Source of the DNA: a virus | Virus record (IMG/VR): IMGVR_UViG_3300042549_001343 | Location: 1-53,280 of that record | Length of the DNA stretch: 53,280 nt | Reading direction: 5' to 3' (one strand) | Shown here: positions 13,832 through 40,786 of the stretch, piece by piece | Position numbering within the stretch: position 1 is the stretch's first letter | How the letters are laid out: each line of letters starts with the position of its first letter | Program-made: the position numbers and the translations under genes | The notes under the pieces: model-generated | Told to the model about the DNA's origin: nothing | Seen by the model: the letters and a program-made list of their open reading frames with translations, nothing else | Database searches by the model: none

Positions 13832-15268
13832 TCATGTCCATGCTTTGCTGGACGCTTTTTTAACTGGTCGTGCCCTCACCTCTACTCTGCCGCTTCGTGC
13901 TGCTAAACAGAGGTACTGGAGTGCATCGTGGGGATGGCTGTATTTGTCTTTGACTGGTCTGTCGCGGTATCTTTCACCAGCAACCTTGAGTCGTTCGTAC
14001 CTGAACCCGCCGAGGAAACCTTTGCGTAGTTGTCGGCAGTTCGGTGAGAGAAGGAACCCCGCTTCTCCCCCAGCCAACTTGTTGAGGAAGTACGCAACAG
14101 ATTCTCTGCGTGGTATGAAATCATTTGTGCTTGCTGGCTCGCTTGCAATTCCGGCCTCTAGTAGTTCTTGGTAGCAGGTTCTCTCATCTGCTTGAGATCT
14201 GTGTGTACCGGCTGGGTCGCCAGCGGAGATGAACCTCATTCCTGAGTAGGTTGTCATCAGGGCTGGTTTCACAATCTCCTGAGCAAACTGTCTGATGCCC
14301 ATGTCTTCGGCCACGAATTCTTCAAGGATGACAAGCTGTCCTCTTGAAGTTATCTGTCCAACAATGCAAGCAGGTGTGAGTCCGAAGTCCCATCCGAGGT
14401 AGAGAGGCAGTCCTCTATTGACTTCAAGCTCTTCTTCGGCGGTGTGGATTCTGTCGTTGTATTCTGGGTAGACCGGCTTGCCATCGGCGGTTGTTCCGTA
14501 CTGGCCGAGGACGAAGACTTTGATCCAGTCGTCCGTCTTGCCTTTGACCATCTTCAGGTAATACTCATACCCTTGAGGAAGATTGAACACATTCTCCGCT
14601 TCTGAATTCGGCTCATACCGGACATCATCGCCCTCTTGGATACGAAGGAGACCACCCGGTTGGTTAAAGAATTCCCATCCTTCGGGGGTGTCTTCTTCTG
14701 CAATTTTGTAATACCAGTGATCGTCGTCAGGCGGGTTGGTATCAAGGATAACGCATGGATGTACGGGGCCGCCGCCGTGAGTCTTCGCGGGGTAACGACC
14801 GATACGCTGAGTGACCATGTTGAAGACTTCATGCGGAACCTCTGAGGCTTCATTGATCCAAGCTCCAGTAAGTTCGAGGGATCTCAGCTTTCCGGTTTCG
14901 GATGCCTTGTCCAGCGCGATGAAGATAACTTCCAAGTCCAGCCCGTTGCCGTCTCCACAATCTTTGATCTTCATGTGGGCGGTGATTGGGGCATCCCACT
15001 TGATCGGGGCAAGTTCATCATTGAACCATGTTTGCCAAGTCTTGATCGTGGTGGACTTGAGTTCGGGATAGGTATTCCGAATGACCGCCCATCTTGCTTT
15101 TCTCCAGCCATTGTGGGGAGTTTGCTTGAGGGAGTGCTTGACGATCTCCATACAACAGGTTGAGGATTTTCCAGAACCTACTGGCCCTTTGATTCCTCGG
15201 ACATCAGCCATTGAGTTGTGGAACTCAGCGGCCACTTGTCCCGGCGGGTTGTATTGGATGACGGTCAT
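13832..15268 (-). CDS. terL: Terminase large subunit
   Basis: A 478-residue packaging motor. The ATPase domain has Walker A GPVGSGKSS (residues 28-36), a Walker B-like LELTGAWINEASE, and a downstream IGRYPAK arginine region. The nuclease domain has YLGWDFGLTPACIVGQ (first acidic residue), SAGDPAG, and the late KYSHPHDALQYL. It cleaves concatemers and pumps DNA through the portal. Coupled by ATGA to the small subunit gene. Confidence 0.9.
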   Translation of the reverse strand: MTVIQYNPPGQVAAEFHNSMADVRGIKGPVGSGKSSTCCMEIVKHSLKQTPHNGWRKARWAVIRNTYPELKSTTIKTWQTWFNDELAPIKWDAPITAHMKIKDCGDGNGLDLEVIFIALDKASETGKLRSLELTGAWINEASEVPHEVFNMVTQRIGRYPAKTHGGGPVHPCVILDTNPPDDDHWYYKIAEEDTPEGWEFFNQPGGLLRIQEGDDVRYEPNSEAENVFNLPQGYEYYLKMVKGKTDDWIKVFVLGQYGTTADGKPVYPEYNDRIHTAEEELEVNRGLPLYLGWDFGLTPACIVGQITSRGQLVILEEFVAEDMGIRQFAQEIVKPALMTTYSGMRFISAGDPAGTHRSQADERTCYQELLEAGIASEPASTNDFIPRRESVAYFLNKLAGGEAGFLLSPNCRQLRKGFLGGFRYERLKVAGERYRDRPVKDKYSHPHDALQYLCLAARSGRVEVRARPVKKASSKAWT

Positions 15269-15546
15269 TCAGGCTTTACAAAATTTGAACCAATCAAGAA
15301 TGTAACATTCTTTGCATCCGTCTCATGCTTGACAGAAGCCAAGTTCGGCAGGGTTTTGTCCAGCAACATTTCAATTGCTTTGATCCGAGCCGCAGTCAAC
15401 TTGGCAGTCCCCTTGCCCAAAGCAAAGTTTTCCAATGTGGTAACCAAGCTCGACACTTGAATTTTTTCTCGGACAGCAACGGCGTGTTCTTCCCGAAGCT
15501 GCTCCCGACGGGCGCTTACTGCCTCAGTAGATTTCTTTGTTGCCAT
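15265..15546 (-). CDS. terS: Terminase small subunit (putative)
   Basis: A 93-residue basic protein directly upstream of and overlapping terL. The centre (TAARIKAIEMLLDKTLPNLASV) matches the helix found in many small phage terminase subunits, where it mediates oligomerisation and DNA recognition. AGAGGAAACA precedes its ATG. First gene of the left minus-strand operon. Confidence 0.7.
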   Translation of the reverse strand: MATKKSTEAVSARREQLREEHAVAVREKIQVSSLVTTLENFALGKGTAKLTAARIKAIEMLLDKTLPNLASVKHETDAKNVTFLIGSNFVKPE

Positions 15547-15561: not shown

Positions 15562-15810
15562 TTGTTGGCTAATCGCTACGTCTATGGGTCATCCCCGCAG
15601 GTACGCCGACAGCATCCGCTTTCACCAACACGGCTGGAGACTGGTCGCTTCGATCTCAAGGCTTGTACTTCGCCCAGATACCAATCTCCATACGTCTTGA
15701 GATGGTTTGACCATCATTGGCAGGGAATATACCCAGTTGATCCGCAATATGCAACACCTTTTCTGGCAATTCCTGAATCCAGACCTGATCTCAGACACTC
15801 ATTCCAGTAG
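15562..15810 (+). CDS. Possible 82-codon gene without ATG (uncertain)
   Basis: An open frame from TTG 15562 to TAG 15810 in the divergent region. The protein is Arg/Pro/Tyr-rich (LETGRFDLKACTSPRYQSP; LAIPESRPDLRHSF) and reads more like a protein than random sequence. However there is no ATG, no ribosome site, and an in-frame stop six bases upstream. It could be a real TTG-started gene, a decayed one, or chance. Confidence 0.3.
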   Translation: MLANRYVYGSSPQVRRQHPLSPTRLETGRFDLKACTSPRYQSPYVLRWFDHHWQGIYPVDPQYATPFLAIPESRPDLRHSFQ

Positions 15811-15885
15811 AGTGGGTTATTGGGTTTATGGGTTATTGGGTTGCATCCTGTTTTCAGCTCTGATTTCAGAACTGATCTCAGAGAA
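15785..15885. repeat. Iteron-like element and CTGAnnTCAG palindromes
   Basis: From about 15812 the plus strand has TGGGTT four times (TGGGTTATTGGGTT, then ATGGGTTATTGGGTT), then TCCTG and a TCTGATTTCAGA palindrome. CTGAnnTCAG occurs at 15785, 15861 and 15872. The same order occurs inside the DUF1376 gene near 28429-28500. Likely a replication or regulatory protein binding site. Confidence 0.6.
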
Positions 15886-15993
15886 AATGAGTATTTTGTA
15901 GAAAAATTTAGTAGCGGTGTTTGTATAGACCCCGTGGTTTTGGAGACTGGTGTAAGAAAAATGAACTTGTTCTTGTGAGTTACCTATAGCTAG

Positions 15994-16436: not shown

Positions 16437-16538
16437 ATGAAAAAAAGACTTGACACAGCATCAACTTTCTGGTCAACTTCAAATCGTCAATTCGGCAACA
16501 AACCGAAAGCAGACTCAGTAAGTGCTAAAGCACCGTAG
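16437..16538 (+). CDS. 33-residue basic leader-type peptide
   Basis: ATG 16437 follows AGGGGTCGAA, a fair ribosome site. The peptide (MKKRLDTASTFWSTSNRQFG, then NKPKADSVSAKAP) is basic and soluble. The frame is open further upstream (another ATG at 16317) but without a ribosome site. It lies ahead of the hairpin-rich segment and AAA+ gene, where a leader peptide could serve regulation. Confidence 0.45.
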   Translation: MKKRLDTASTFWSTSNRQFGNKPKADSVSAKAP

Positions 16539-16917
16539 GACAGATAGGCTGTGACCCTTCGTAGAAGGGAGTAAGCAAAATCCTTCGGTGACGCTCCGAA
16601 CAAGTCTCTTGACCCCAACGGCGGGATGTAGCGTCGGACTCCGGAGGAGTTGTAACACGGTGGGAACCGTCAACAACACAGCACCGAAGGGTTGGACTAA
16701 GGCTTTGCCTTACTTCTAGAGGCCTCGACTTCATGCAGGTAGCTTCCCTTAAGGAAGAGGTTGCATCGAGCATCGAGATAAACACAGACTTTAGTCTGTC
16801 AACACTCACAGAGTTTCAACGGTATGGCAGTCTCTGACTGCTATGCACTGGACGCTCTGTCCTGTCTTTAGAGGCTCTGCCTCTATTTCGCAACTCACCG
16901 CATTCGAAAGGAATCCC
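16539..16917 (+). other. Hairpin-rich leader of the early operon (possible structured RNA)
   Basis: Seven perfect short hairpins in ~330 bases: CCCTTC/GAAGGG at 16555, ACTCC/GGAGT at 16638, ACGGT/ACCGT at 16657, TAAGGC/GCCTTA at 16698, ACAGAC/GTCTGT at 16784, GCAGTC/GACTGC at 16827, and AGAGGC/GCCTCT at 16870. Loops are 3 or 4 bases, mostly TCT, TTT or TTTA. None has a T-run. It looks like a folded 5' leader. Confidence 0.55.
16733..16837 (+). CDS. Possible 34-residue peptide in leader
   Basis: ATG 16733 to TGA 16837 encodes MQVASLKEEVASSIEINTDF followed by SLSTLTEFQRYGSL, protein-like and acidic. GAGG lies about ten bases upstream. It overlaps two hairpins of the leader. Size and weak ribosome site make it uncertain. 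Confidence 0.3.
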   Translation: MQVASLKEEVASSIEINTDFSLSTLTEFQRYGSL

Positions 16918-18069
16918 ATGCGTGACTCACTCGTTCCCCTCTCCAAGCCCGAAATCCTCTGGATTTTCCGCCACCTCAACGGTGGAACCGTAGGTTTCAA
17001 CTTCGAGACCGTCCAAAAATTGGACTTGATCGACAGATTACTACTGGCCTTCTCTGAAGGACAGATTACCGATGCCATGTCAAATGGTATCCCAACCGTT
17101 AACCCCAAAGGGGTTGCCATCGATGGAGAAAGTCGTCCAATGCCACCTGCCACCAAGCCTTCGGCTCCCAAGTCATCAGACACTGATGCACTGCAAGCCC
17201 TCCGCAACTTACTGTCTCCGACAGTCGACGAAGCAACTGTTCGACAGATTGTTCTCGCCGAAGTCAAGAAAGCAATGGACGATAGTCCAGTTGTCAAAAT
17301 CGAGGTCGTAAGACCTGACGGTTCAGCCCACAAAGTGGAAGGCCACACCAGACCAGAATTTAAGAAAATTCTGACCAGAGCAACTGTCGGTATCAACATT
17401 CTGTTGGTCGGCCCTGCCGGTTGTGGCAAGACGCACCTTGGTCACCAAGTGGCTGAAGCCCTTGGTAGACCCTTTGCCTCGGTCTCTTGCACTGCCGGAA
17501 TGTCAGAGTCAGCCCTTCAGGGCTGGTTGATTCCTTCAGACGGTGGTTCTTTCCAGTACCTTACCTCTGACTTCGTCAGAATGTATGAGGAAGGCGGTGT
17601 CTTTCTGTTCGACGAAGTCGACGGTGCAGACAGCAATACTTTGCTGTTCCTGAATCAGGCTCTCGCCAATGGATCGTTCTTTTTGCCGATCCGGAAAGGT
17701 GCTTCACTGGTCAAACGTCATCCAGACTTTGTCTGTATTGCCGCCGCCAATACCTTCGGTACTGGAGCAAATCAGACTTATGCCGGTCGTGAACGACTCG
17801 ATGAGTCGACACTGGACAGATTCCGTGCCGGCGTCATCTCACTGGACTATGACCAGACTTTCGAAAGAAAGACTGTGGCTCCTGACCTGTTGGCTTGGGG
17901 TTGGGCGATTCGTAAACGAATCAATGAAGCCCGACTCCGTCGAATCATGTCAACTCGATTCCTGCTCGATGCAACGAAGTTGCTCAAGGCCGGTGAGACT
18001 GTCGAGGAAATCAAGGCGACCTTCTTTGAAGGTTGGTCAGCAGACGAAATCAAGAAAGTAGAGGTCTGA
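16918..18069 (+). CDS. MoxR/CbbQ-like AAA+ ATPase
   Basis: A 383-residue protein from ATG 16918 (AAAGGA upstream). After a ~150-residue N-terminal region, residues 165-172 are Walker A GPAGCGKT. ESALQGWLIPSDGG follows, then Walker B VFLFDEVDGAD (D232/E233), sensor-1 CIAAANTFGTGANQTY and ERLDESTLDRFRAG, the arginine-finger region of MoxR-type AAA+ ATPases. Such ATPases remodel partner complexes together with a vWA protein; the next gene, one base downstream, looks like that partner. First large gene of the early operon. Target unknown. Confidence 0.8.
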   Translation: MRDSLVPLSKPEILWIFRHLNGGTVGFNFETVQKLDLIDRLLLAFSEGQITDAMSNGIPTVNPKGVAIDGESRPMPPATKPSAPKSSDTDALQALRNLLSPTVDEATVRQIVLAEVKKAMDDSPVVKIEVVRPDGSAHKVEGHTRPEFKKILTRATVGINILLVGPAGCGKTHLGHQVAEALGRPFASVSCTAGMSESALQGWLIPSDGGSFQYLTSDFVRMYEEGGVFLFDEVDGADSNTLLFLNQALANGSFFLPIRKGASLVKRHPDFVCIAAANTFGTGANQTYAGRERLDESTLDRFRAGVISLDYDQTFERKTVAPDLLAWGWAIRKRINEARLRRIMSTRFLLDATKLLKAGETVEEIKATFFEGWSADEIKKVEV

Positions 18070-25805: not shown

Positions 25806-26146
25806 AGTTTTTTTACTCCGCTGGTGTGTTCGGTCGCAAAAAATTCGTATGCAACCTCAGACCCTCTGGCAATAGCGTCGGCTTTCTTTTCATTTAGCTT
25901 CTTAATTTGGTCGCACATATTGACAAGCTCCTCACCAGACTTTGGAATACCCCAGTCCATCACAAACTCTGAGGCCTGATTCAGGGCATGCTCTCTGATG
26001 AGCATGATTTCTTTGTGGGTGATTGATCTATTCGACCTGTCTTTGACCATCTCCAGCTCAAACGACAGAGAATGGACAGCCGCCTTGTATGCTTCAAGCT
26101 CAGCGGCAAGTTGTTTTGCACGCAATTCAAACTTCGTTGGAGTCAT
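25802..26146 (-). CDS. Helical protein downstream of helicase
   Basis: A 114-residue helical protein (FELRAKQLAAELEAYKAAV; SITHKEIMLIREHALNQA) with coiled-coil character. It overlaps the helicase gene stop as ATGA, so it may be made in proportion to it; a helicase accessory role is speculative. Confidence 0.5.
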   Translation of the reverse strand: MTPTKFELRAKQLAAELEAYKAAVHSLSFELEMVKDRSNRSITHKEIMLIREHALNQASEFVMDWGIPKSGEELVNMCDQIKKLNEKKADAIARGSEVAYEFFATEHTSGVKKL

Positions 26147-27090
26147 ATCTCAACTCCTTCACTAGACATGTATCTGTCGTAGTTGTAGTAGGTCTTGTTT
26201 GTCGGAGACTGTGAGTACGAGCATGCTCCAGACTGATAGAACAAGCCTACCCGACCCTCCCAATCTCCGTGCCTGTTCTTGTCGCAAACCAAAAGCGCAT
26301 CAGGTAAACCCTCATCAACCTCTTTGCCAGCCTGAATCTGTTGCTCTTTGCGTTTGTTTCTCCAAACAGTAAAGCACTGATCCACCTGATCGACAATGGC
26401 TCCGCTGCCTTTGGCATCCATCTTTCCGGGGACTTGCATTTCGTCTCCAAGTTTTCTACTGTGATGGATTACATGTACATGTATGTTGAAGTCCAAGGCA
26501 AACGAACAGACATTGTCAATGAAGTTCTTTTGTCCGTTGTAGTCGTCCTCACCCTTAACAACCTTCATCAGTGAGTCAATGACGAAATGCTGCACACCAA
26601 GTTTCTTTGCGGCGTAACGCATGATTGCCAACAGATGGTTCGGATCTGTCTGTCCCATCTTGTCGTACAACCACAGCCGGTTAGTCGCATGGGACAGAAC
26701 GCCATCGACAAACCTTGATGTTGGGAGCGCACTACCAGCAGCTTGCTTACACATGCGAGCAAGCGTTGCTCGTGGCTTCATCTCAAAGCTGGCGACGCAG
26801 ACCTTCTGGTTCTGATGTAAGAAGTCAAGCATGACGTGGCTGGTCAACAGACTCTTTCCATGTCCGTTGATACCCATCCACAGGCTCACCTCGCCCGGAC
26901 GAAATCTAATGTGGTCATGGGTCTTGGGCCAAGGAAGTCTTGCGCCATCGACCATCTCTCCGCCATTCAACAGAGCAATGGTCTCGTCTCTGTATGCCTT
27001 GGGCGCAACGATCTTGTCCTTGTCGTGCGGCTCACTCGCATACTCGGCAAAGTCTATGCTGTCTGCTGTGAAGATCATTTCATTTGACAC
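26143..27090 (-). CDS. DnaB-like replicative helicase (RecA fold, no primase)
   Basis: A 315-residue protein from GTG 27090 behind AGGAGTAGACA. Walker A GINGHGKS, VCVASFEMKPRATLARM, and the Walker B-type LGVQHFVIDSLMKV match the RecA-fold helicase core (T7 gp4/DnaB family). FNIHVHVIHHSRK (motif H4-like) follows. There is no zinc-binding primase domain, so priming is likely by the host. It should unwind DNA at the origin discussed at 28.43 kb. Confidence 0.75.
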   Translation of the reverse strand: MSNEMIFTADSIDFAEYASEPHDKDKIVAPKAYRDETIALLNGGEMVDGARLPWPKTHDHIRFRPGEVSLWMGINGHGKSLLTSHVMLDFLHQNQKVCVASFEMKPRATLARMCKQAAGSALPTSRFVDGVLSHATNRLWLYDKMGQTDPNHLLAIMRYAAKKLGVQHFVIDSLMKVVKGEDDYNGQKNFIDNVCSFALDFNIHVHVIHHSRKLGDEMQVPGKMDAKGSGAIVDQVDQCFTVWRNKRKEQQIQAGKEVDEGLPDALLVCDKNRHGDWEGRVGLFYQSGACSYSQSPTNKTYYNYDRYMSSEGVEI

Positions 27091-27946: not shown

Positions 27947-28161
27947 TTCTTCATCTCCCTGATGTAGGTTGCAATACTGGACAAGGTGTCCTTACCAAAT
28001 GCTTTGGCAAATCCATGCTCGATATTGAAGGCCGCCATCTCCAGTGCGGCATTCCATCCAGCCTCGTAATGTCTTTCAAGTCTTTCCTGTACAGTGCTGA
28101 GCTTTTGCTCAAGGCCGCTGAGCTTCTCGTCAATATCTGTCTGTCTGTTGAAGTCGGTCAT
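27943..28161 (-). CDS. Small coiled-coil protein
   Basis: A 72-residue protein from ATG 28161: coiled coil (DEKLSGLEQKLSTVQERLER) then EAGWNAALEMAAFNIEHGF. Overlaps the replication gene stop as ATGA. Possibly an accessory of the replication protein; no direct evidence. Confidence 0.55.
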   Translation of the reverse strand: MTDFNRQTDIDEKLSGLEQKLSTVQERLERHYEAGWNAALEMAAFNIEHGFAKAFGKDTLSSIATYIREMKK

Positions 28162-28817
28162 AGCATTCCTTCGAATTGAATTGATTGGTCGGAGGTTTCG
28201 TCTTCCCACCTACGTTGATTCAGCCACGTACTTGGGAATGGAATGAATTGGCCGTTGTCTTTCAGCCAGTCTGTGGATTGGCGTGACTTCGCAAGGGACG
28301 CAAGCATCTGAGCAAGCACCTCGGCATCCGGATTTATTTTGTTGAAGGACTTCTGTGCCTCTGCCTTGGCTACCTTGCGGGGGTATGCTGACCAGAAGGA
28401 ATCAAACCCCTCGACAATAGGTGCGGGTTTGTGGGTTCTTGGGTTCTTGGGTTTCTGGGTTACGTCCTGAAACGGTTCTGGTTTCAGTTCTGATTTCAGA
28501 GTTTTCTTTTCTATCTTGGCCTTGTTCGCACGTCTGGCCGACTCTGCTTTGCCGTGGTACTTCTCGATCTCGTAGTCACAACGGTCATTCTTCCACCCAT
28601 CATCTGACTGGATGAAGAACTCATGTAGCACACGAGCAACATCATCCGAATGCTCACGCATCGAGATCAGTCGAGCGCAGTCATCTGGCTGGAACGGCAG
28701 TGGCTTTTCTTCTGTGTAGTACACGTCCATCAAACGACGGTACGCCAAATCTTCGGTCAGGCTGAGATGCCTTGTCTTCGTCAGGTAGTCCCTGATATGA
28801 AATTGATAGCTAAACAT
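28158..28817 (-). CDS. DUF1376 replication protein (origin-binding candidate)
   Basis: A 219-residue protein from ATG 28817 (AAAGGACTCA upstream). The N-terminal DUF1376 domain reads FHIRDYLTKTRHLSLTEDLA, YRRLMDVYYTEEKPLPF and later DYEIEKYHGKAESARRANK. A basic/proline linker (about residues 107-130, KPKNPRTHKP) is followed by a second domain with FDSFWSAYPRKVAKAEAQKS and FIPFPSTWLNQRRWED. YPRK...WL is seen in phage primosome-type proteins. The linker DNA contains G-rich iterons, as in the lambda O gene. Probably the replication initiator that loads the helicase. Confidence 0.75.
   Translation of the reverse strand: MFSYQFHIRDYLTKTRHLSLTEDLAYRRLMDVYYTEEKPLPFQPDDCARLISMREHSDDVARVLHEFFIQSDDGWKNDRCDYEIEKYHGKAESARRANKAKIEKKTLKSELKPEPFQDVTQKPKNPRTHKPAPIVEGFDSFWSAYPRKVAKAEAQKSFNKINPDAEVLAQMLASLAKSRQSTDWLKDNGQFIPFPSTWLNQRRWEDETSDQSIQFEGML
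28429..28500 (-). repeat. G-rich iterons inside the replication gene (candidate origin)
   Basis: Within the linker of the DUF1376 gene, the plus strand reads TGGGTTC, TTGGGTTC, TTGGGTTT, CTGGGTTA in tandem, then GTCCTG and a TCTGATTTCAGA palindrome. The same order occurs at 15.81-15.88 kb. Iterons in the middle of an initiator gene are the lambda O/ori arrangement, so this is a candidate origin. Confidence 0.5.
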
Positions 28818-29105: not shown

Positions 29106-29882
29106 ATGTCAGATTCAAACAATAACTTCTTGAACGTGTGGAACGCCACATGTACGACCGACCCACGGCACGTCAAATCCTTCAGCCGAGGCGGTGGATT
29201 CTCGGGCACGGCCATCAATCACACGTACCAAATCCGCAAGGCGACCGAACTCTGGGGGCCGATGGGTCACCTCTGGTCTGTCAAGATTGTTGAGCAAGGG
29301 CTGATGCAAGGTACGCCCATCATTGCCGAGGAGATCACCGAGGAGTGGACGCTCGACAGCAAAGGTGAGCGTGTGCTAACAAGACAGGAGATCCGCAAGG
29401 TTGCGGTTGCCAACGAGACCATTCACTTTGTCCGCATCCATCTGACCTACCCAATCTTTATAGAGAACGGGGAGGGAGTGCCGATCCATTCCGGAAACGG
29501 GACGGTCGAACACTTCGGCCAGACCACCTTTGTCGGCAAGAACAAGAACGGCTACTTCACGGACGAGGAGGCCCCGAAGAAATCCTTAACAGATGCTATC
29601 GGCAAGGCTCTGTCAATGCTGGGATTCTCTGCGGACATCTACCTCGGACTGTTCGACGACAACAAGTACGTCAATGATCGCAAGGCTGAAGCAGCCAAAG
29701 CTGGCGCAGCCAAGCCAGAGATCAAGGCCAAGATGACTGCCGAACAGGTGGATGATTTGAAGCGGAGGCTGTCTGAGTGCAAGAGCAAAGAGTCCTTGCG
29801 TGCCCATTTTGCTTTGTTGACCAACGACGAGAGGGCTGTGACAGAGGAGTTCTGCAAGGCGCTGGCAGCGGGGTTGGAATGA
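29106..29882 (+). CDS. Single-strand annealing protein (Rad52/Redbeta-like, putative)
   Basis: A 258-residue protein (AAGGAACCAG upstream). TEEWTLDSKGERVLTRQEIR leads into a KKSLTDAIGKALSMLGFSAD region and YLGLFDDNKYVNDRK, the conserved box of phage ssDNA-annealing proteins. The C-terminal ~70 residues are charged and helical. Together with the downstream nuclease and SSB it forms a recombination module resembling lambda Bet/Exo. Annealing activity inferred. Confidence 0.65.
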   Translation: MSDSNNNFLNVWNATCTTDPRHVKSFSRGGGFSGTAINHTYQIRKATELWGPMGHLWSVKIVEQGLMQGTPIIAEEITEEWTLDSKGERVLTRQEIRKVAVANETIHFVRIHLTYPIFIENGEGVPIHSGNGTVEHFGQTTFVGKNKNGYFTDEEAPKKSLTDAIGKALSMLGFSADIYLGLFDDNKYVNDRKAEAAKAGAAKPEIKAKMTAEQVDDLKRRLSECKSKESLRAHFALLTNDERAVTEEFCKALAAGLE

Positions 29883-30115
29883 CAGATTCTGCCTTAGATT
29901 CACTAAAAATGCAGCTAGACGCTGCAAAAATACAACTGGCCAACGCAACAGTGGACGCTGTAATCGTGGAGGTTGTCTTGCCTATGGCCTACAACATCAT
30001 TGACCAACTCATCGATCTGGACGGCAAGCCAATACCAAAGAAACTTTTGGCCGATGCAAAGAAACTTCTGCCAAGCAACTACAAGAATTCATTTCAGTTC
30101 AAGGGCGAGGCATGA
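29879..30115 (+). CDS. Small helical protein in recombination operon
   Basis: A 78-residue helical protein from ATG 29879, ATGA-coupled to the annealing gene (KMQLDAAKIQLANATVDAVI; LPMAYNIIDQLIDLDGKPIP). No motif recognised. Its position suggests an accessory to annealing or nuclease. Confidence 0.55.
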   Translation: MTDSALDSLKMQLDAAKIQLANATVDAVIVEVVLPMAYNIIDQLIDLDGKPIPKKLLADAKKLLPSNYKNSFQFKGEA

Positions 30116-30732
30116 ACCCACATCAGAGAACAGATCAATGGTTCAAAGACAGAGAGGGGAAGCTGACGGCATCCTCTTTCGGACAGGCCGCTGGCCTCGG
30201 CCCGGGTTCTCGTCAGCAACTCTGGCGAAGAATGATGGGATTAGAAGAACCGTTTGAAGGAAACCCTGCATCACAATGGGGAGAGGAGCATGAGACTGAA
30301 GCAGTTGCTGAGTACAGCAAAAAATGTGTTGATGACCCTGCGTCTGTCAGTTTGGTGGGGTTCGTACCGCATCCGGAGATGGCTTGGATTGGCGGTTCAC
30401 CCGATTTTTTTGTTGGGGATAAGGGGATGGGTGAGGTCAAGTGCCCGTATTCGCAAGTTGTCTACCCAGAAGTCCCGCCCTATTACATGGCGCAAATGCA
30501 GGGGCTTATGGAAATCACGCAAAGGGACTACTGCGAGTTCGTAGTCTGGACACCCGACGTTATGGCTGTCACAAGGATTGACAGATCGAAGGAGTATTGG
30601 GACTGGCTGCATCTGCGGCTGGCTGACTTTTGGTGTTGGGTGGTAGCCCAAGTAGAGCCACCAAGAGAAAAGAAATCCCAACCACCAAAGCTCGAATTAA
30701 CCGCAACAACTCTTTTCAAATTGAAGGATTAA
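30112..30732 (+). CDS. YqaJ-family viral exonuclease
   Basis: A 206-residue protein with WFKDREGKLTASSFGQAAG, SQWGEEHETEAVAEY, GGSPDFFVGDKGMGEVKCP (the D...E-x-K nuclease core) and YYMAQMQGLMEI, all diagnostic of YqaJ/lambda-Exo-type nucleases. It should resect double-stranded ends to give 3' tails for the annealing protein. ATGA-coupled to the preceding gene. Confidence 0.85.
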   Translation: MNPHQRTDQWFKDREGKLTASSFGQAAGLGPGSRQQLWRRMMGLEEPFEGNPASQWGEEHETEAVAEYSKKCVDDPASVSLVGFVPHPEMAWIGGSPDFFVGDKGMGEVKCPYSQVVYPEVPPYYMAQMQGLMEITQRDYCEFVVWTPDVMAVTRIDRSKEYWDWLHLRLADFWCWVVAQVEPPREKKSQPPKLELTATTLFKLKD

Positions 30733-35800: not shown

Positions 35801-38800
35801 TCCATCAATCTCCATGACTTTGACTGAGTCTTTTCCAGCAATAGTCTTGGCAACAGACGGAACGATGGTGTTGTAGAACTCACGCATACCAGCGCCGCCA
35901 ATATCAAGTTGCTCGCCGCGAATAACTCTTGCTCCGCCGCCAATTTCTCCAACATCATCGGCAATCATCTTGGCTATATCCTTTCCGTATGTTCTACGGA
36001 TGGTGTCCAAGTCCATCTTGCCGCTTCCCTGCATTATCTCCATGTCATCTTTTACAGCCGTGATCTCGTATGTTTTTCCATCCTCGTATGCGTCATAGTA
36101 AATCTCATCTACAGCTTTAGATAGCCTGTACCTTTGGTTCTGTTGATCTCCAGTAGTCCACGCAACCCGGTCAATGCCCTTGGTTTGAGCGTAAGCAATA
36201 GCCCTTTTGAGGAGTAAAGATGCCCATGACTTTGTGTCTTTAATGAATGGGGCTTCAGGAACGCCGACACCCAAGGCTGACTTTATTGCCTCTTCTTTGG
36301 TGTTGCCATAAAGCCCAACCTGCCGCCTTGCGGATTCATCGAATACATACCAACCGTTTTTTTCATCTTTATAAACCTCAAACCCTGCTGGTAACTCTGT
36401 TCTTTTAGAGTCGGCAAAACCTTGTTCTCGCCCCTCTTGCGCTCTTTGGCTTTGGATTTCCTCCAAGAACAAAACATCATTACCCTCAGCATCCTTACGA
36501 ACATTGGTTCTCAACCATCCAATATGCTTGCCATATGCAAGATCACCAAAATGAATGGTGTCTTCTTCTTTGTACGGCTGGATACTTGGGTCTGTCAATA
36601 TTATTTCTGCATAGTCTCTTCCTCCGGGAAGAACGGTTGGCATGCTGCCGGTCGGCCTGTTGTACTTTGCTGTCAGCCTATCTTTTGCCCTAGCAAGAGA
36701 TCGCTCATAACCTCTAATATGCTCACGGTTAAACCTCACCAAAGAGGCATTGTCCTTTATCCATTGCTTGGCCTCTTCGCCAGTTAAGCTATCTGGATCT
36801 ATAAACCACTGTGGGTTTTCATCTTCGTATTGAGCGTCAACTATGCCAATGTAGTCATAGTGTTTTTCCATTTCGTCCCTGACGAACTCACGGTAGTCCT
36901 CCTCCGTGGGATCTTTGTATTCAGGAAGCGCAACAGATGGGTTGTCTGTCAATATGATGTCGTTGAGCTTGACCTTATTGCCAGCAATCCAATTCAGGAT
37001 AGTCTGCTTTTCGACCTTGCTTTCTTGTAGATCAAGCCACTCCTCAATACCAGTCCACTCGATCTCAGCATTCTTGATGCCGAGCTTAGACTTGTTTGAA
37101 TTGAGCCATGCCTTCCACTGCTGGGCAGGCATAGATGTCTGTTTGACAGATTCAAAGCCACGCTCCATTGCAGAGTAGAAGGTCTCAGTACCCTCTTTCT
37201 TTGTGCTGAACTGGATGCCTGCCTCTGGCTGGGCCGCCGCTTCTTGCGCTGCTGGCTGGATGTTTCCAAGAACATCAGCAACTGCACGACGCACAGCATT
37301 CAAATCTGTCACCAGATTCTTTGAGCCAAGGCTCTGGTCTCCACGAAGTTTTGCAATGACGTTGTCAATGAAGTCCATGACAATACGAGCAACCTGCTCG
37401 AACATGGTTGGGTTGTCATCAGCAAGCATCTGCCAGAAAGCGGACTCACCAAATCTGTCGCCAACAATATCTCCAATGGCTTCTTCCAAAATCAACGCAG
37501 GGTCTTTCACGCCCTCTTTGCCCATGACCATTGCATAGTCCAGCATTCCCGCCTGATCTAACAATGGAGTCAGCGAGTTAACCAACCTTCTGTAGGTGGC
37601 GTTATTGGATGCACGGAGCGAATGCACAAGCTCATGGCCGAATATGCGAATGTGTGGACGGCTACTGTTTATGTTGATGAAGATGGTGTCCGACCCCGAG
37701 AGGACTGCCCCGTCGAAGTCATTGACACTTCCCTCCTCCACTGCAAAATAGATAGGCTTTTTTCCGAACAGAGCGGCAACTCGTTGGACGGCAGAGATGC
37801 CGGGAACCTTTCCAACAATATCGCCCAGAGGAACTCTTTTCGCTGAGAAGGTTGCTGTGCTTCCTTGTCTTTTGAGGTAGGCTCTGACTTCGCTGTTGAG
37901 ATCGTCAACCGTTTTGAGCTTGGCATAACTAAAGTCCCTTCCAGTGGTGGTCGTTTGTTGCTCTCTACCCATGCTGAACTTAGCGCCAGCACCAGCGCCG
38001 AGATTGTCTTCAGCAGTCTTCTTCATCTGGGAGACTGCTCCAGCCAAGTCGCCGTCATCAACCATTTTGCTCAGCTTGACCACATCTTCTAAGTCAAGGC
38101 CGCTCTCTTCATACGCTTTGTTAATGCGCTCCTTAACACGAGCTTGTAGTGCAGGGTCAACTGCTGGCTTTGCTGGTGTTACTTCTTGCGGCTTCGCCCC
38201 GCCTTCGACAGGCTGATCGCCACGGCCTGTTTCACCGCCGCCTGTTTGTTCTTTGGCTGTGACGACCCGATCTTCCCTGACTTCTGGAAGTCCCCCACCA
38301 ACGTCTTCACGTTTTGGCTGACCACCTTTTGTGACTTGCCTTTTTTGAGTGGCATCTGTTTCTCCTTGTTTTGATTTGTAGTCACTGACCAATCTATCGA
38401 ACGCATCCCCGGCCTGCTGAAGAACAGCCTGATCTGTCTCTCCGTTGTCAGTGAGGGTGTCAATCGTGTTTTGTCGATATGCGCCCAGAGCCTCATCTAA
38501 TGAAGCGTACTCCCCAACTTGGTCAATTGCCGTATCAAAATTTGTTTTGACGACACCAGTAAATTCGGCTCTTTGTGGTTGAGCCTGTGCACCCGCCGTG
38601 ACGGCTGGCGCTGCAACAACAGGAGCGGCGGCCTTGCCCTTCTTTGGTTTTGTTGGCTTGGCTGTAGTGGCGGCTGGCGTTTCGACTGGTGCGGCTGGCG
38701 CAGCAGCAGTGACTTCTGGAGCAACGGTAGGAACAACCTCTGCTGGTTTCTTGCGTGACTCTACAAAGAAGAACGTGCCACCGCCTTCAGCTTTAGAGCG

Positions 38801-40786
38801 TTTGCCCTGACGGATGCGAGCCTCAAGACCCTGTCCGGCAAGGGTAGTCTGTGCGTAACCACCACTGCGCTTGCTTGTCTCTTTGTCCACAGGGCCAAGC
38901 AGAAAAGTCTCGGCGGCCTGCAATGATGGGAATCTGTTCCCGACCGGGCCTTTGTCTGTCGTGATACCAACCAAAGGCTCGAAGCCCTCTTGTCTGGCGA
39001 CCAAGTCTTCAGGAGACAGGGCGACCGTACCAGCCTGACCGCCGGTTGTTTCTGGAAGGATGACCGGCTGAGCTTCACCTTCAAGGGTGCGTGTCTCCAA
39101 GTTGGGTGTGACGCTGGCTCGCTGGATGACAGGCTCAATTGCGCCAGTGCTTCCACCCACTGCGGTAGAGGCCGTCTCGTCAAATGCAGCGAGGATGTCT
39201 GCCTCACGTTGCTTTCTGGTTTCAGCTCTGACTTCAGGAGTTGGGGCTTCCAATTCAACCAGCATGCGCTGTGTTGCCAAAGCCTTAACGATGACATCTT
39301 GGAACCTTGGGTCATCACCAGACTCAATGTTGTTGGCCTGAAGGATCGGGCCAATTCTTTCGTCGTCGAACATTGCATCGAACAATTCCTGACGGCCATC
39401 GTCAGAAGTCATGTCAGCTTTGGCTTGATCCAGAATCTGTCGGACTCTGTCGGGGGATGTCTTGCCATCTCGGAATGCACCGACCACAGCACCGACCGTA
39501 CCACCGCCCAAGCCACCCAATGCAAACGCATTGATGTACTCGTTCATAGCATCCTCGCCGGTCAGGGTTTTGCCTGCACCGAAACGCTCGATGGCTGTCT
39601 GGAATAATTCTTGGCCGCCTTCGATGCCAACACCAGCCGCGCCACCAATCAGCGCACGACCGGGACGGCCAGCGCCGGGGATATTGATCTTGCCAGCCGC
39701 AACGCCCAAGCCAAGGCGATCAACCGCCGCCTCAGACAGACCGGCAATAACGCCAGAGCCAAAGATGCGAGCCAAGTCGCCGCCATCTAACTCACGGCCT
39801 TCTTTGCCAGCTTGCTCTTCTGCTTCGCCGTAGATACCGCCAGTTGACTTGATGATCCCAGAGCCAGCCAAAGCAGTAGTAGAACCAATGTTCTTTGCCA
39901 CATTCTTTGTGGCTTCCTTCAGCATCACATCTGTCGCCGTATCAACTCCAGCCTTCTCTGCCAGACGAGCAGCTTCCTTGGCAACCATGCCCTCGATGAG
40001 ATTCTTGGCTACGGTTTTGGTTGCTTCTTTTCCAACAGCACCAGCAACAGCACCGCCTACAGCGCCAACAGGCGCGGCAGGGCCAGAGACAGCAGCACCA
40101 GCAAAAGCACCGAGAGCAGACGTAGCTACAGTCTCAACGATGTTTCCACCAAGGTAGCCAACGCCATACTGCGCCCAGTCAACCAGCGCACCAAGGTCTC
40201 CCTGCTTTGCTTTGGCCCAAGCCTTGGTTACATCATCTGTCTCTTTGGCTGTTGCGCCGATCTCTTTCATTCTGGTCTGGTACTCGCTGAGACCAAACTT
40301 CTTGAGGGAGGACATTGAGCCGCCCTCTCCAAAGAGCTTCTCTCCAGCGGCTCCGGCAAATCCAAGTGCGCCGTATGCCAGTGCTGGTGTTTGCTCTAGC
40401 GCTACAGCACCACCTCGCAAAAAGTCGCCGGTATCTTCGGCAGGCTTTGCGGCAACAGGCTCTGTAGATGGAACAGTCATCCCAAACTTAGAGTCAAGGA
40501 TGTTGGAAAGGCTCTGTCTTTTTTCCTGCGGTTGTCCAACATCAGCAGTAGTCTGAGGTGCAGGCGCACTTAACTTTGCGTCAAGGATACTAGCTAATGA
40601 CATCTTCCCATCTGCCGCAGGGACTGGGGCGGCGGATGTAGATGGAGCAGTCAGGGCTGTTCTTGGTGCAGGCTCGAACCCCTTCGACCTTGGAAGAACC
40701 TCGGTGGACAGCGCCTCCTCTTTAGATAAATAAAGAGGGTTTTCTTCTGTTTCATCTAGCCCAAGTAAAGACAGACCTGTTCCCAT
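32834..40786 (-). CDS. Giant polyvalent ejection-type protein with HELVH metalloprotease
   Basis: 2650 residues. Disordered N-terminal ~150; Gly/Ala membrane-like segments near 230-260 and 435; a Pro/Ala-rich linker around 690-720. A metalloprotease-like domain carries HELVH at 1051-1055 with EEAIGDIVGD (~1101-1110) as the likely third ligand region. A polyvalent domain of the HFGDLAYGKHIGW ... EEIQSQRAQEGRE type starts at ~1412. An LPD38-like region (~1825-2230) with a membrane segment follows, then a FADGG tag and an aromatic C-terminal domain. Such proteins are packaged and injected with the DNA, protecting it or acting on the host. AGAGGCAACA precedes ATG 40786. Confidence 0.75.
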   Translation of the reverse strand: MGTGLSLLGLDETEENPLYLSKEEALSTEVLPRSKGFEPAPRTALTAPSTSAAPVPAADGKMSLASILDAKLSAPAPQTTADVGQPQEKRQSLSNILDSKFGMTVPSTEPVAAKPAEDTGDFLRGGAVALEQTPALAYGALGFAGAAGEKLFGEGGSMSSLKKFGLSEYQTRMKEIGATAKETDDVTKAWAKAKQGDLGALVDWAQYGVGYLGGNIVETVATSALGAFAGAAVSGPAAPVGAVGGAVAGAVGKEATKTVAKNLIEGMVAKEAARLAEKAGVDTATDVMLKEATKNVAKNIGSTTALAGSGIIKSTGGIYGEAEEQAGKEGRELDGGDLARIFGSGVIAGLSEAAVDRLGLGVAAGKINIPGAGRPGRALIGGAAGVGIEGGQELFQTAIERFGAGKTLTGEDAMNEYINAFALGGLGGGTVGAVVGAFRDGKTSPDRVRQILDQAKADMTSDDGRQELFDAMFDDERIGPILQANNIESGDDPRFQDVIVKALATQRMLVELEAPTPEVRAETRKQREADILAAFDETASTAVGGSTGAIEPVIQRASVTPNLETRTLEGEAQPVILPETTGGQAGTVALSPEDLVARQEGFEPLVGITTDKGPVGNRFPSLQAAETFLLGPVDKETSKRSGGYAQTTLAGQGLEARIRQGKRSKAEGGGTFFFVESRKKPAEVVPTVAPEVTAAAPAAPVETPAATTAKPTKPKKGKAAAPVVAAPAVTAGAQAQPQRAEFTGVVKTNFDTAIDQVGEYASLDEALGAYRQNTIDTLTDNGETDQAVLQQAGDAFDRLVSDYKSKQGETDATQKRQVTKGGQPKREDVGGGLPEVREDRVVTAKEQTGGGETGRGDQPVEGGAKPQEVTPAKPAVDPALQARVKERINKAYEESGLDLEDVVKLSKMVDDGDLAGAVSQMKKTAEDNLGAGAGAKFSMGREQQTTTTGRDFSYAKLKTVDDLNSEVRAYLKRQGSTATFSAKRVPLGDIVGKVPGISAVQRVAALFGKKPIYFAVEEGSVNDFDGAVLSGSDTIFININSSRPHIRIFGHELVHSLRASNNATYRRLVNSLTPLLDQAGMLDYAMVMGKEGVKDPALILEEAIGDIVGDRFGESAFWQMLADDNPTMFEQVARIVMDFIDNVIAKLRGDQSLGSKNLVTDLNAVRRAVADVLGNIQPAAQEAAAQPEAGIQFSTKKEGTETFYSAMERGFESVKQTSMPAQQWKAWLNSNKSKLGIKNAEIEWTGIEEWLDLQESKVEKQTILNWIAGNKVKLNDIILTDNPSVALPEYKDPTEEDYREFVRDEMEKHYDYIGIVDAQYEDENPQWFIDPDSLTGEEAKQWIKDNASLVRFNREHIRGYERSLARAKDRLTAKYNRPTGSMPTVLPGGRDYAEIILTDPSIQPYKEEDTIHFGDLAYGKHIGWLRTNVRKDAEGNDVLFLEEIQSQRAQEGREQGFADSKRTELPAGFEVYKDEKNGWYVFDESARRQVGLYGNTKEEAIKSALGVGVPEAPFIKDTKSWASLLLKRAIAYAQTKGIDRVAWTTGDQQNQRYRLSKAVDEIYYDAYEDGKTYEITAVKDDMEIMQGSGKMDLDTIRRTYGKDIAKMIADDVGEIGGGARVIRGEQLDIGGAGMREFYNTIVPSVAKTIAGKDSVKVMEIDGTGQQLGFVIPESLQEQVANDGFPMFSRKRYEEQFSDVSPDTRDRALKKGFYSPPTIKERLDHLRPNFALRIVQGTFDKFRSVRDISQKAYMMLRMSTGSQDGAVSTLLHYGQVFNDDGALNVKKGTQGLLEILDPVGGEVDRFLLWIAANRAAALSKDERERFFSPEDIKSLRGLNMGTMKNGKSRLAIYAETLKNMNELNRSVLDVARDTGLIDAEGYKRFAADIWYIPFYRQMEDDGSLSAAQTSSGAVGQYLSKKLKGSERPLNDLMENVLMNWTHILSASMKNQAAVETLTSATQMGDVVTKLERQEKGAVKVMEKGVETFYRIDDEFLLTSLSAVAQMPSYGWGMDIMRGFKTTLTRFISLSPTFKINNLIRDSIQSIGLSELSRSPIGNVLQGWRAYKNERAEALAGGGLFAMGNAFDGDQSASVKRLLKTGVNKADILDTPEKVASFFGKIQDKYDEISDASENANRLALYQQLRAKGASHLEASYAARDLQDFSLQGSYSAIRYAAQVLPYFNARLQGMYKLGRDGLDPTMQVLTGKASDTERQKAAKFATVTGAVVAAAMILYLSQKDDEDWKKREDWDRDAFFWFKLPGTDKAVRIPKPFEMGAIATLVERVTEQMVDSQVEGKVFGKRLLAVLHDTFAVNPIPQAIRPLYDIARNKDGFTDRPIESMGMERISVENRVSPGTSAAAVAISTVNGMFAEFASKATGGAISTQSSQLSAIQYDYMIKGYLGWVGSVIQTSSNMMAAPFKDGASSRYERIDDFLVVGNFVKTVPQAQSRYVTSFYENSKDVATASADVSHFLNAGQFDKANEIYIEKSDKLALAKLYTKGTNMMSSISNQIKMVEDDKTMSGAEKRLEIERLQQVRIQIAKSVEDMRVGSKKKFADGGVVKFDPESEDYDYDTAVSAGLGPDGKDENAGHWGSVTKASAEDKKKYGLPDGSYVVLKGRKHETWDKAEEAERERGSEIVKMGDRYYSVPKK

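Follow-up and report, generated by a model that had tools for sequence, protein, structure and literature searches.

Why does a bacterial virus carry what looks like one repeat element in two places, once within the gene of a DUF1376 protein and once in noncoding DNA ahead of its terminase genes? We analysed this question in IMG/VR record IMGVR_UViG_3300042549_001343, the whole 53,280 nt of which are called the window here. The original prediction held that the gene is a replication gene with its origin inside it, as lambda O has, and that the second copy could be a second origin, a regulatory site for the initiator or a decoy. We examined the anatomy of the two copies, their fate in relatives and the DUF1376 genes of other phages and prophages, and weighed the possible roles of the second site.

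Two copies of one element in the window

Re-reading and alignment confirmed both elements at the positions given for them, with the same order recurring in noncoding DNA upstream of the terminase genes. About 72 bp could be aligned between the gene copy (28431-28501) and the terminase-side copy (15812-15883), which are 12.6 kb apart. Both copies lie on the + strand and have identical order and orientation, with four 8-bp TGGGTTNN iterons (A-block) followed by a short CCTG link and about three 12-bp CTGATTTCAG-type palindromes (B-block). The A-units of the gene copy were TGGGTTCT, TGGGTTCT, TGGGTTTC and TGGGTTAC and its B-units GTCCTGAAACGG, TTCTGGTTTCAG and TTCTGATTTCAGAG, while the terminase-side copy had A-units TGGGTTAT, TGGGTTTA, TGGGTTAT and TGGGTTGC and B-units ATCCTGTTTTCAGC, TCTGATTTCAGA and ACTGATCTCAGAG. 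The four TGGGTT units predicted were present in each copy, but the base that follows is not always the Y of the predicted TGGGTTY (it is A in unit 4 of the gene copy, and A, T, A and G in the noncoding copy). The palindrome predicted behind the repeats was also present, but as a single unit of a 12-bp tandem array detected by Tandem Repeats Finder. The terminase-side copy is noncoding; it sits between divergent genes, 267-339 bp ahead of the small terminase start, and an isolated extra CTGATTTCAG-type unit is found near its B-block at 15784-15795. All features are listed in Table 1.

The two elements aligned as the prediction required, with a local alignment score of 57 compared with a maximum of 27 among 300 random pairs of places in the window. 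When all 300-bp windows on both strands were ranked, the best match of the terminase-upstream noncoding region was the DUF1376 gene, and the next best place scored 40. These two arrays were the only fourfold TGGGTTNN arrays in the contig, where about 5e-10 per window are expected by chance from the shuffled hexamer frequency. Chance likeness of the two copies was rejected on these alignment scores, the genome-wide rank and this expectation. Since the NN spacer bases differ between the copies, they are unlike a recent DNA duplication, and the part in common is the motif content. A candidate third copy at 39215-39238 (TCTGGTTTCAGCTCTGACTTCAGG, in a 2650-aa gene) was B-like only, had no iterons and was treated as chance. 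The contig scan of GC skew showed no extreme at either element, and the skew mostly tracked gene direction.

Table 1. Features of the window discussed in the text
Feature	Coordinates	Strand	Basis
Gene copy, A-block: four 8-bp TGGGTTNN iterons	28432..28463	+	Repeat reading, Tandem Repeats Finder, synonymous constraint
Gene copy, B-block: 12-bp CTGATTTCAG-type palindromic units	28464..28501	+	Repeat reading, Tandem Repeats Finder; low duplex stability
Terminase-side copy, A-block: four 8-bp TGGGTTNN iterons, noncoding	15813..15844	+	Tandem Repeats Finder; kept in relatives
Terminase-side copy, B-block: three 12-bp CTGATTTCAG-type units	15848..15883	+	Tandem Repeats Finder
A+T-rich least stable stretch adjoining the terminase-side B-block, possible unwinding element	15863..15930	.	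Duplex stability scan
DUF1376 protein gene, 219 aa from the conserved ATG, proposed replication initiator	28158..28817	-	PF07120; PHROG; conserved start MFSYQFHIRDYL
DnaB-like helicase / RecA-like ATPase, downstream of the initiator gene	26143..27090	-	PF13481, PF03796; PHROG DnaB-like helicase, primase/helicase
Exonuclease-like protein, early region	29106..29882	+	PHROG exonuclease
YqaJ-type recombination nuclease	30112..30732	+	PF09588
Large terminase subunit (TerL)	13832..15268	-	PF03237, PF04466
Presumed small terminase subunit, 93 aa, directly upstream of TerL	15265..15546	-	Position and conservation in relatives

The DUF1376 protein and its gene neighbourhood

The assignment of the protein to DUF1376 was correct (PF07120, E 7e-23, 81.3 bits against a curated cut-off of 30.1). 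The Pfam search of the window protein returned DUF1376 only and no homology to the lambda O DNA-binding N-domain. PHROG matches placed the N-part in 'primosomal protein' families and the C-part (about residues 85-211) in 'replication initiation protein' families. In the structure model, a compact N-domain of helices and one small beta-hairpin is followed by a long helix, then by a disordered linker and a small C-domain. The element encodes this linker, as had been proposed, and its DNA falls in the segment modelled as disordered, 111-137 (residues 111-130 mostly with pLDDT <50). Comparison with PDB chains by sequence and by fold gave no significant match to a known initiator, with winged-helix proteins among the weak matches. 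The C-domain of the window initiator is common to phage proteins that have unrelated N-domains (L032, L034, L036, L039, L046 and L072), so these initiators look modular.

The presumed small terminase subunit had no family match in Pfam or PHROG. A hairpin-rich conserved leader was seen at 16512-16608, upstream of a MoxR-like AAA gene (16843-18069, + strand), and was also present in G009, G010, G023, G051, G052 and G060. It had no Rfam match and is possibly an undescribed cis-acting RNA.

Conservation of both copies in relatives

A blastn search gave no DNA relatives of either element among named phages, and relatives from IMG/VR were used for this reason. The exact fourfold TGGGTTNN pattern matched 46 stretches in the viral collection, most of which fell within DUF1376 homologues or ahead of TerL homologues and had the same tail; the reversed pattern is no valid control for a periodic array. 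Both sites were found in direct orientation on the whole contigs G006, G009 and G010. The contigs G009 and G056 have identical ends of 123 bp and 127 bp, respectively, and therefore look like circular, complete maps. The spacing of the copies was 12.4 kb in G006, 13.9 kb in G010, 14.4 kb in G009 (around the circle), 11.3 kb in G052, 15.6 kb in G056 and 15.0 kb in G082. At least five lineages had both copies as direct repeats 11-16 kb apart that shared the lineage's own motif, and the terminase-side position was kept in distant relatives. Both copies of the element are conserved in relatives rather than absent from them.

Joint change of the two sites

Depending on the lineage, the A-motif at both places was TGGGTTNN, YTGGTTNN or a 7-bp TGGTTNN, and the B-palindromes were of the CTGATTTCAG or the GCCCCCC type. 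The best own-genome match of the terminase-upstream region was the DUF1376 gene in the window, G009 (overlapping contig ends left out as a self-match), G010, G052, G056 and G060, with a small margin in G060 (46 vs 42). In G082, which was searched the opposite way, the own-genome match of the DUF1376 gene and the terminase-upstream region was also the best. The DUF1376 gene of G023 is cut at the contig end, which makes the rank test unusable for this contig, and its terminase-side array was found directly.

Relatives with a DUF1376 protein 66-71% identical to that of the window had a gene array of the CTGGTTCTTTGGTTCTTTGGTTTACTGGTT form, and G023, the sole contig of this group with a terminase region, had ATTGGTTTATTGGTTTACTGGTTTATAGGTT upstream of the terminase. 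The unit in this group has changed from TGGGTTNN to YTGGTTNN at both places, and four contigs (L157-L160) had a terminase-side array of the same kind as G023. Six more distant contigs carried TerL and DUF1376 together. In G056, G060 and G082, both places had TGGTTNN units of 7 bp. The DUF1376 protein of G082 is 43% identical; its gene had TTGGTTC units followed by GCCCCCC-type palindromes, and the pair of TTGGTTC and GCCCCCC-type motifs was found directly upstream of its terminase genes. A GGGTACC-type B-block occurred on separate contigs, in the gene elements L326 and L333 and in the terminase elements L187 and L210, and these aligned to each other with scores of 66-95 compared with 22-23 for an unrelated terminase region.

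A permutation over five lineages ranked the own-genome pairing of A-blocks best (1 of 120 arrangements), and the own-genome pairing of B-blocks was reached by 5 of 120. Three contigs (G051, G057 and G061) kept the terminase (69-85% identical), had initiators of other subfamilies and were without a terminase-side copy. Since G051 and G061 have gene arrays and no terminase copy, not every DUF1376 phage can depend on the second site. The joint change of both sites suggests one binder.

Repeats of further types were observed in this survey. Upstream of TerL, L197 and L200 had ATGGGTA units followed by up to seven 11-bp CGTTGAACGTC repeats; the CGTTGAACGTC B-type was also found inside the DUF1376 genes of L295, L297, L303 and L304, and the partner initiator gene was absent from the L197 and L200 loci. 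The other-subfamily DUF1376 gene of G057 (L247-L249, near 38176-38910) had many AGCTGAGCTA-type repeats, possibly another intragenic iteron type, and no terminase-side copy. Six TGGGTTTA units were found at 7005-7050 of L091 (G038), a 7.5-kb contig that has no DUF1376 gene; they lie some 640 bp ahead of a TerL that is very distant, at 29% identity.

DNA-level constraint and duplex stability

We compared 15 DUF1376 genes of the three nearest groups in 12-codon windows. Synonymous-codon identity was 0.81-0.94 over the element and about 0.52-0.80 elsewhere in the gene, while amino-acid identity over the element was just 0.73-0.88. A unit of 7 or 8 bp passes through all three reading frames, so that its DNA sequence cannot be preserved by a protein repeat alone.

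DNA of low stability was found beside the B-block of both copies in most genomes. Counted from the least stable DNA of each genome upwards, the B side of the gene copy ranked within 2.5% in the window, 0.35-3.4% in five relatives and 11% in G082. The B side of the terminase-side copy was in the lowest 0.01-2.7% of duplex stability in each genome; in the window this flank was in the lowest 0.07% and among the five least stable places of the contig. The gene copy was less A+T-rich than the terminase copy, and the gene copy of G082 was not unstable. Noncoding DNA is often A+T-rich, so that low stability at the terminase-side copy is weak evidence when taken alone.

TGGTT arrays as a mark of DUF1376 genes

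TGGTT-type arrays in the same linker and on the antisense strand were present in DUF1376 genes of Pseudomonas, Vibrio, Methylophilaceae and Chlorobiaceae phages. Cultured DUF1376 phages include Vibrio phage 1.183.O and Methylophilaceae phage P19250A, but a cultured phage with both sites was not found. We then applied a strict array rule to another 50 DUF1376 loci, of which 18 were viral and 32 came from bacterial genomes spanning several phyla. An antisense array was found in 24 of these genes and a sense-strand array in none, with one array in 680 kb of flanks (Fisher p about 6e-37, with loci that are not fully independent). Across entire genomes of 1-7 Mb, the triple TGGTT pattern was found almost nowhere but in the DUF1376 gene. 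The strict rule detected no TGGTT array in about half of the DUF1376 genes sampled, and several of these bear other repeats (GTTGAACGTCC, TCGGTTC or ATGGGTA). None of six genes with the same C-domain and another N-domain had a TGGTT array, which indicates that the A-iteron goes with the DUF1376 domain. A 36.5-kb viral contig (L085, G036) had about ten clusters of TGNGTTCT arrays, all in one orientation, with 46 pattern matches.

No link between DUF1376 and an origin was found in the titles and abstracts of literature naming DUF1376, a coverage that excludes most subscription journals. Within the literature covered, neither the iteron rule for DUF1376 genes nor the terminase-side twin that changes jointly with the gene copy has been described.

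Discussion

Taken together, these results are probably best explained by a DUF1376 protein that acts as the initiator, a gene copy that is the origin, and a second site like SPP1 oriR. The parts of this explanation differ in strength. From the shared and jointly changing motifs, it is very likely that one protein recognises both sites, and the gene copy is very likely to be the origin. The second copy stands at an even chance or slightly better of being a second origin or fork barrier of the SPP1 oriR type. The best reading of DUF1376 proteins in general is that they are lambda-O-like initiators with an intragenic origin; PHROG initiator matches, the nearby DnaB-like helicase, the DNA-level constraint and the recurrent TGGTT arrays in DUF1376 genes all support the comparison with lambda O that had been drawn.

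In the mechanism we propose, the initiator would bind the A-iterons within the linker-coding DNA of its own gene, the palindromic B-repeats beside them would melt easily, and the DnaB-like helicase encoded nearby would then be loaded. The same initiator would bind the second site, 12.6 kb away and just upstream of the terminase genes. Like SPP1 oriR, this second site would most likely work as a second, late origin or as a fork barrier, and may aid the switch from circle replication to concatemers for packaging. We lean towards reading the second copy as an origin because of its full anatomy, its direct orientation, the 11-16 kb spacing as in SPP1 and the very low stability of its B side. The sequence evidence favours an origin-like initiator site there without deciding against a regulatory site.

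A regulatory role is the strongest of the alternatives, although we consider it unlikely. The gene copy would still be the origin and the terminase copy a transcriptional operator, through which the initiator or a shared regulator times the late or packaging genes. A place between divergent genes, 267-339 bp ahead of the TerS start, would suit an operator, as would the retention of this place in distant relatives. However, an operator needs less than the complete A and B anatomy seen here, with its fixed order, direct orientation and unusually unstable flank, and our promoter scan found no sigma-70 promoter-like site at the terminase copy, where a promoter of another kind may still act.

We regard a copy-control or decoy role of the terminase copy, on the model of iteron plasmids, as improbable; in such a role, handcuffing or titration of the initiator would damp replication. 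Two arrays of the same iteron in direct orientation fit such a role, and extra origin copies in the cell have been reported to block lambda replication. A decoy needs iterons only, yet the B-block is kept and changes jointly with that of the gene; moreover, there is little need for copy control in a lytic burst.

The chance is smaller still that the terminase copy is part of a pac or cos packaging signal, with the likeness arising from binding by terminase or by a shared bending protein. Pac or cos sites are common upstream of terminase genes, and the copy is directly upstream of these genes, but the motif tracks the initiator and not the terminase. G051, with a TerL 85% identical and another initiator, has no terminase-side element, while in G082, with a TerL 72% identical, the terminase-side element matches its own initiator gene. 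TGGTT arrays also occur in the DUF1376 genes of phages with no related terminase.

That the gene array is only the repetitive code of a disordered protein linker, with coincidental likeness in noncoding DNA, is hardly credible: linkers are often of low complexity and the encoded segment is modelled as disordered, but this explanation was rejected by the synonymous-codon constraint over the element and by the 7/8-bp period read in three frames, and antisense-only arrays, joint change of the two sites over many lineages and a chance expectation of about 5e-10 per window also stand against it.

The preferred reading, an initiator with an intragenic origin and a second, origin-like site, resembles what is known of SPP1. 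This phage has two similarly organised origins 12-13 kb apart, oriL in gene 38 and the noncoding oriR, and gp38 binds both (PMC6316719, PMC3485210). The phages studied here likewise have an intragenic direct-repeat element and a similar noncoding site, at 11-16 kb (12.6 kb in the window), and the helicase is encoded in the same region in both systems. The iterons and the annotated protein families are different, and SPP1 oriR is inside the late region beside moron genes whereas the second site of the window is just upstream of the terminase. Gp38 binding and origin activity are known in SPP1, while their counterparts here are inferred from sequence.

In lambda O, the iterons and the melting region lie between the N-terminal and the C-terminal domain. 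The lambda origin within gene O is built of four iterons, each an 18-bp inverted repeat, and an A+T-rich region of 39 bp (PMC6022878). The initiator gene of the window similarly carries iterons and a candidate melting region in its own coding sequence. In contrast to lambda, its repeats are direct and of 7/8 bp, the palindromic units are 11-12 bp long, the N-domain is of another kind, and there is a second site away from the gene. Iteron plasmids also have several clusters of short direct repeats, to which a single initiator presumably binds. Their clusters are usually beside the rep gene, and not inside rep and 12 kb away.

The Rac prophage of E. coli, which has a DUF1376 protein (ydaU), is reported to have an active origin, oriJ. 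The ydaU gene of E. coli K-12 (L283, 4120-4977) has GTTTGAACAYCTG repeats and differs from the window gene in that a TGGTT array is absent. Rac oriJ was not accepted as a mapped DUF1376 origin, since the literature searched gives no oriJ position and ydaU has no such array.

In its broadest form, which we put forward tentatively and hold at a little below an even chance, a large and unassigned DUF1376 initiator family would read a conserved TGGTT code in its own linker DNA in phages from several bacterial phyla, with a lineage-specific palindromic half-site beside the code, and one branch would have a co-varying second origin at the terminase that couples replication mode to packaging.

On the reading preferred here, a domain of unknown function gains a testable job, and a predicted origin position could be read off the sequence of many phages and prophages. 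The joint change of the second site would offer a ready-made set of proteins and matching DNA sites on which specificity could be studied. The results suggest that a phage group other than that of SPP1, with an initiator of another family, also has the SPP1-type two-site layout. Comparison and genetics could then be brought to bear on the role of the second site, be it that of a late origin, a fork barrier or a regulator.
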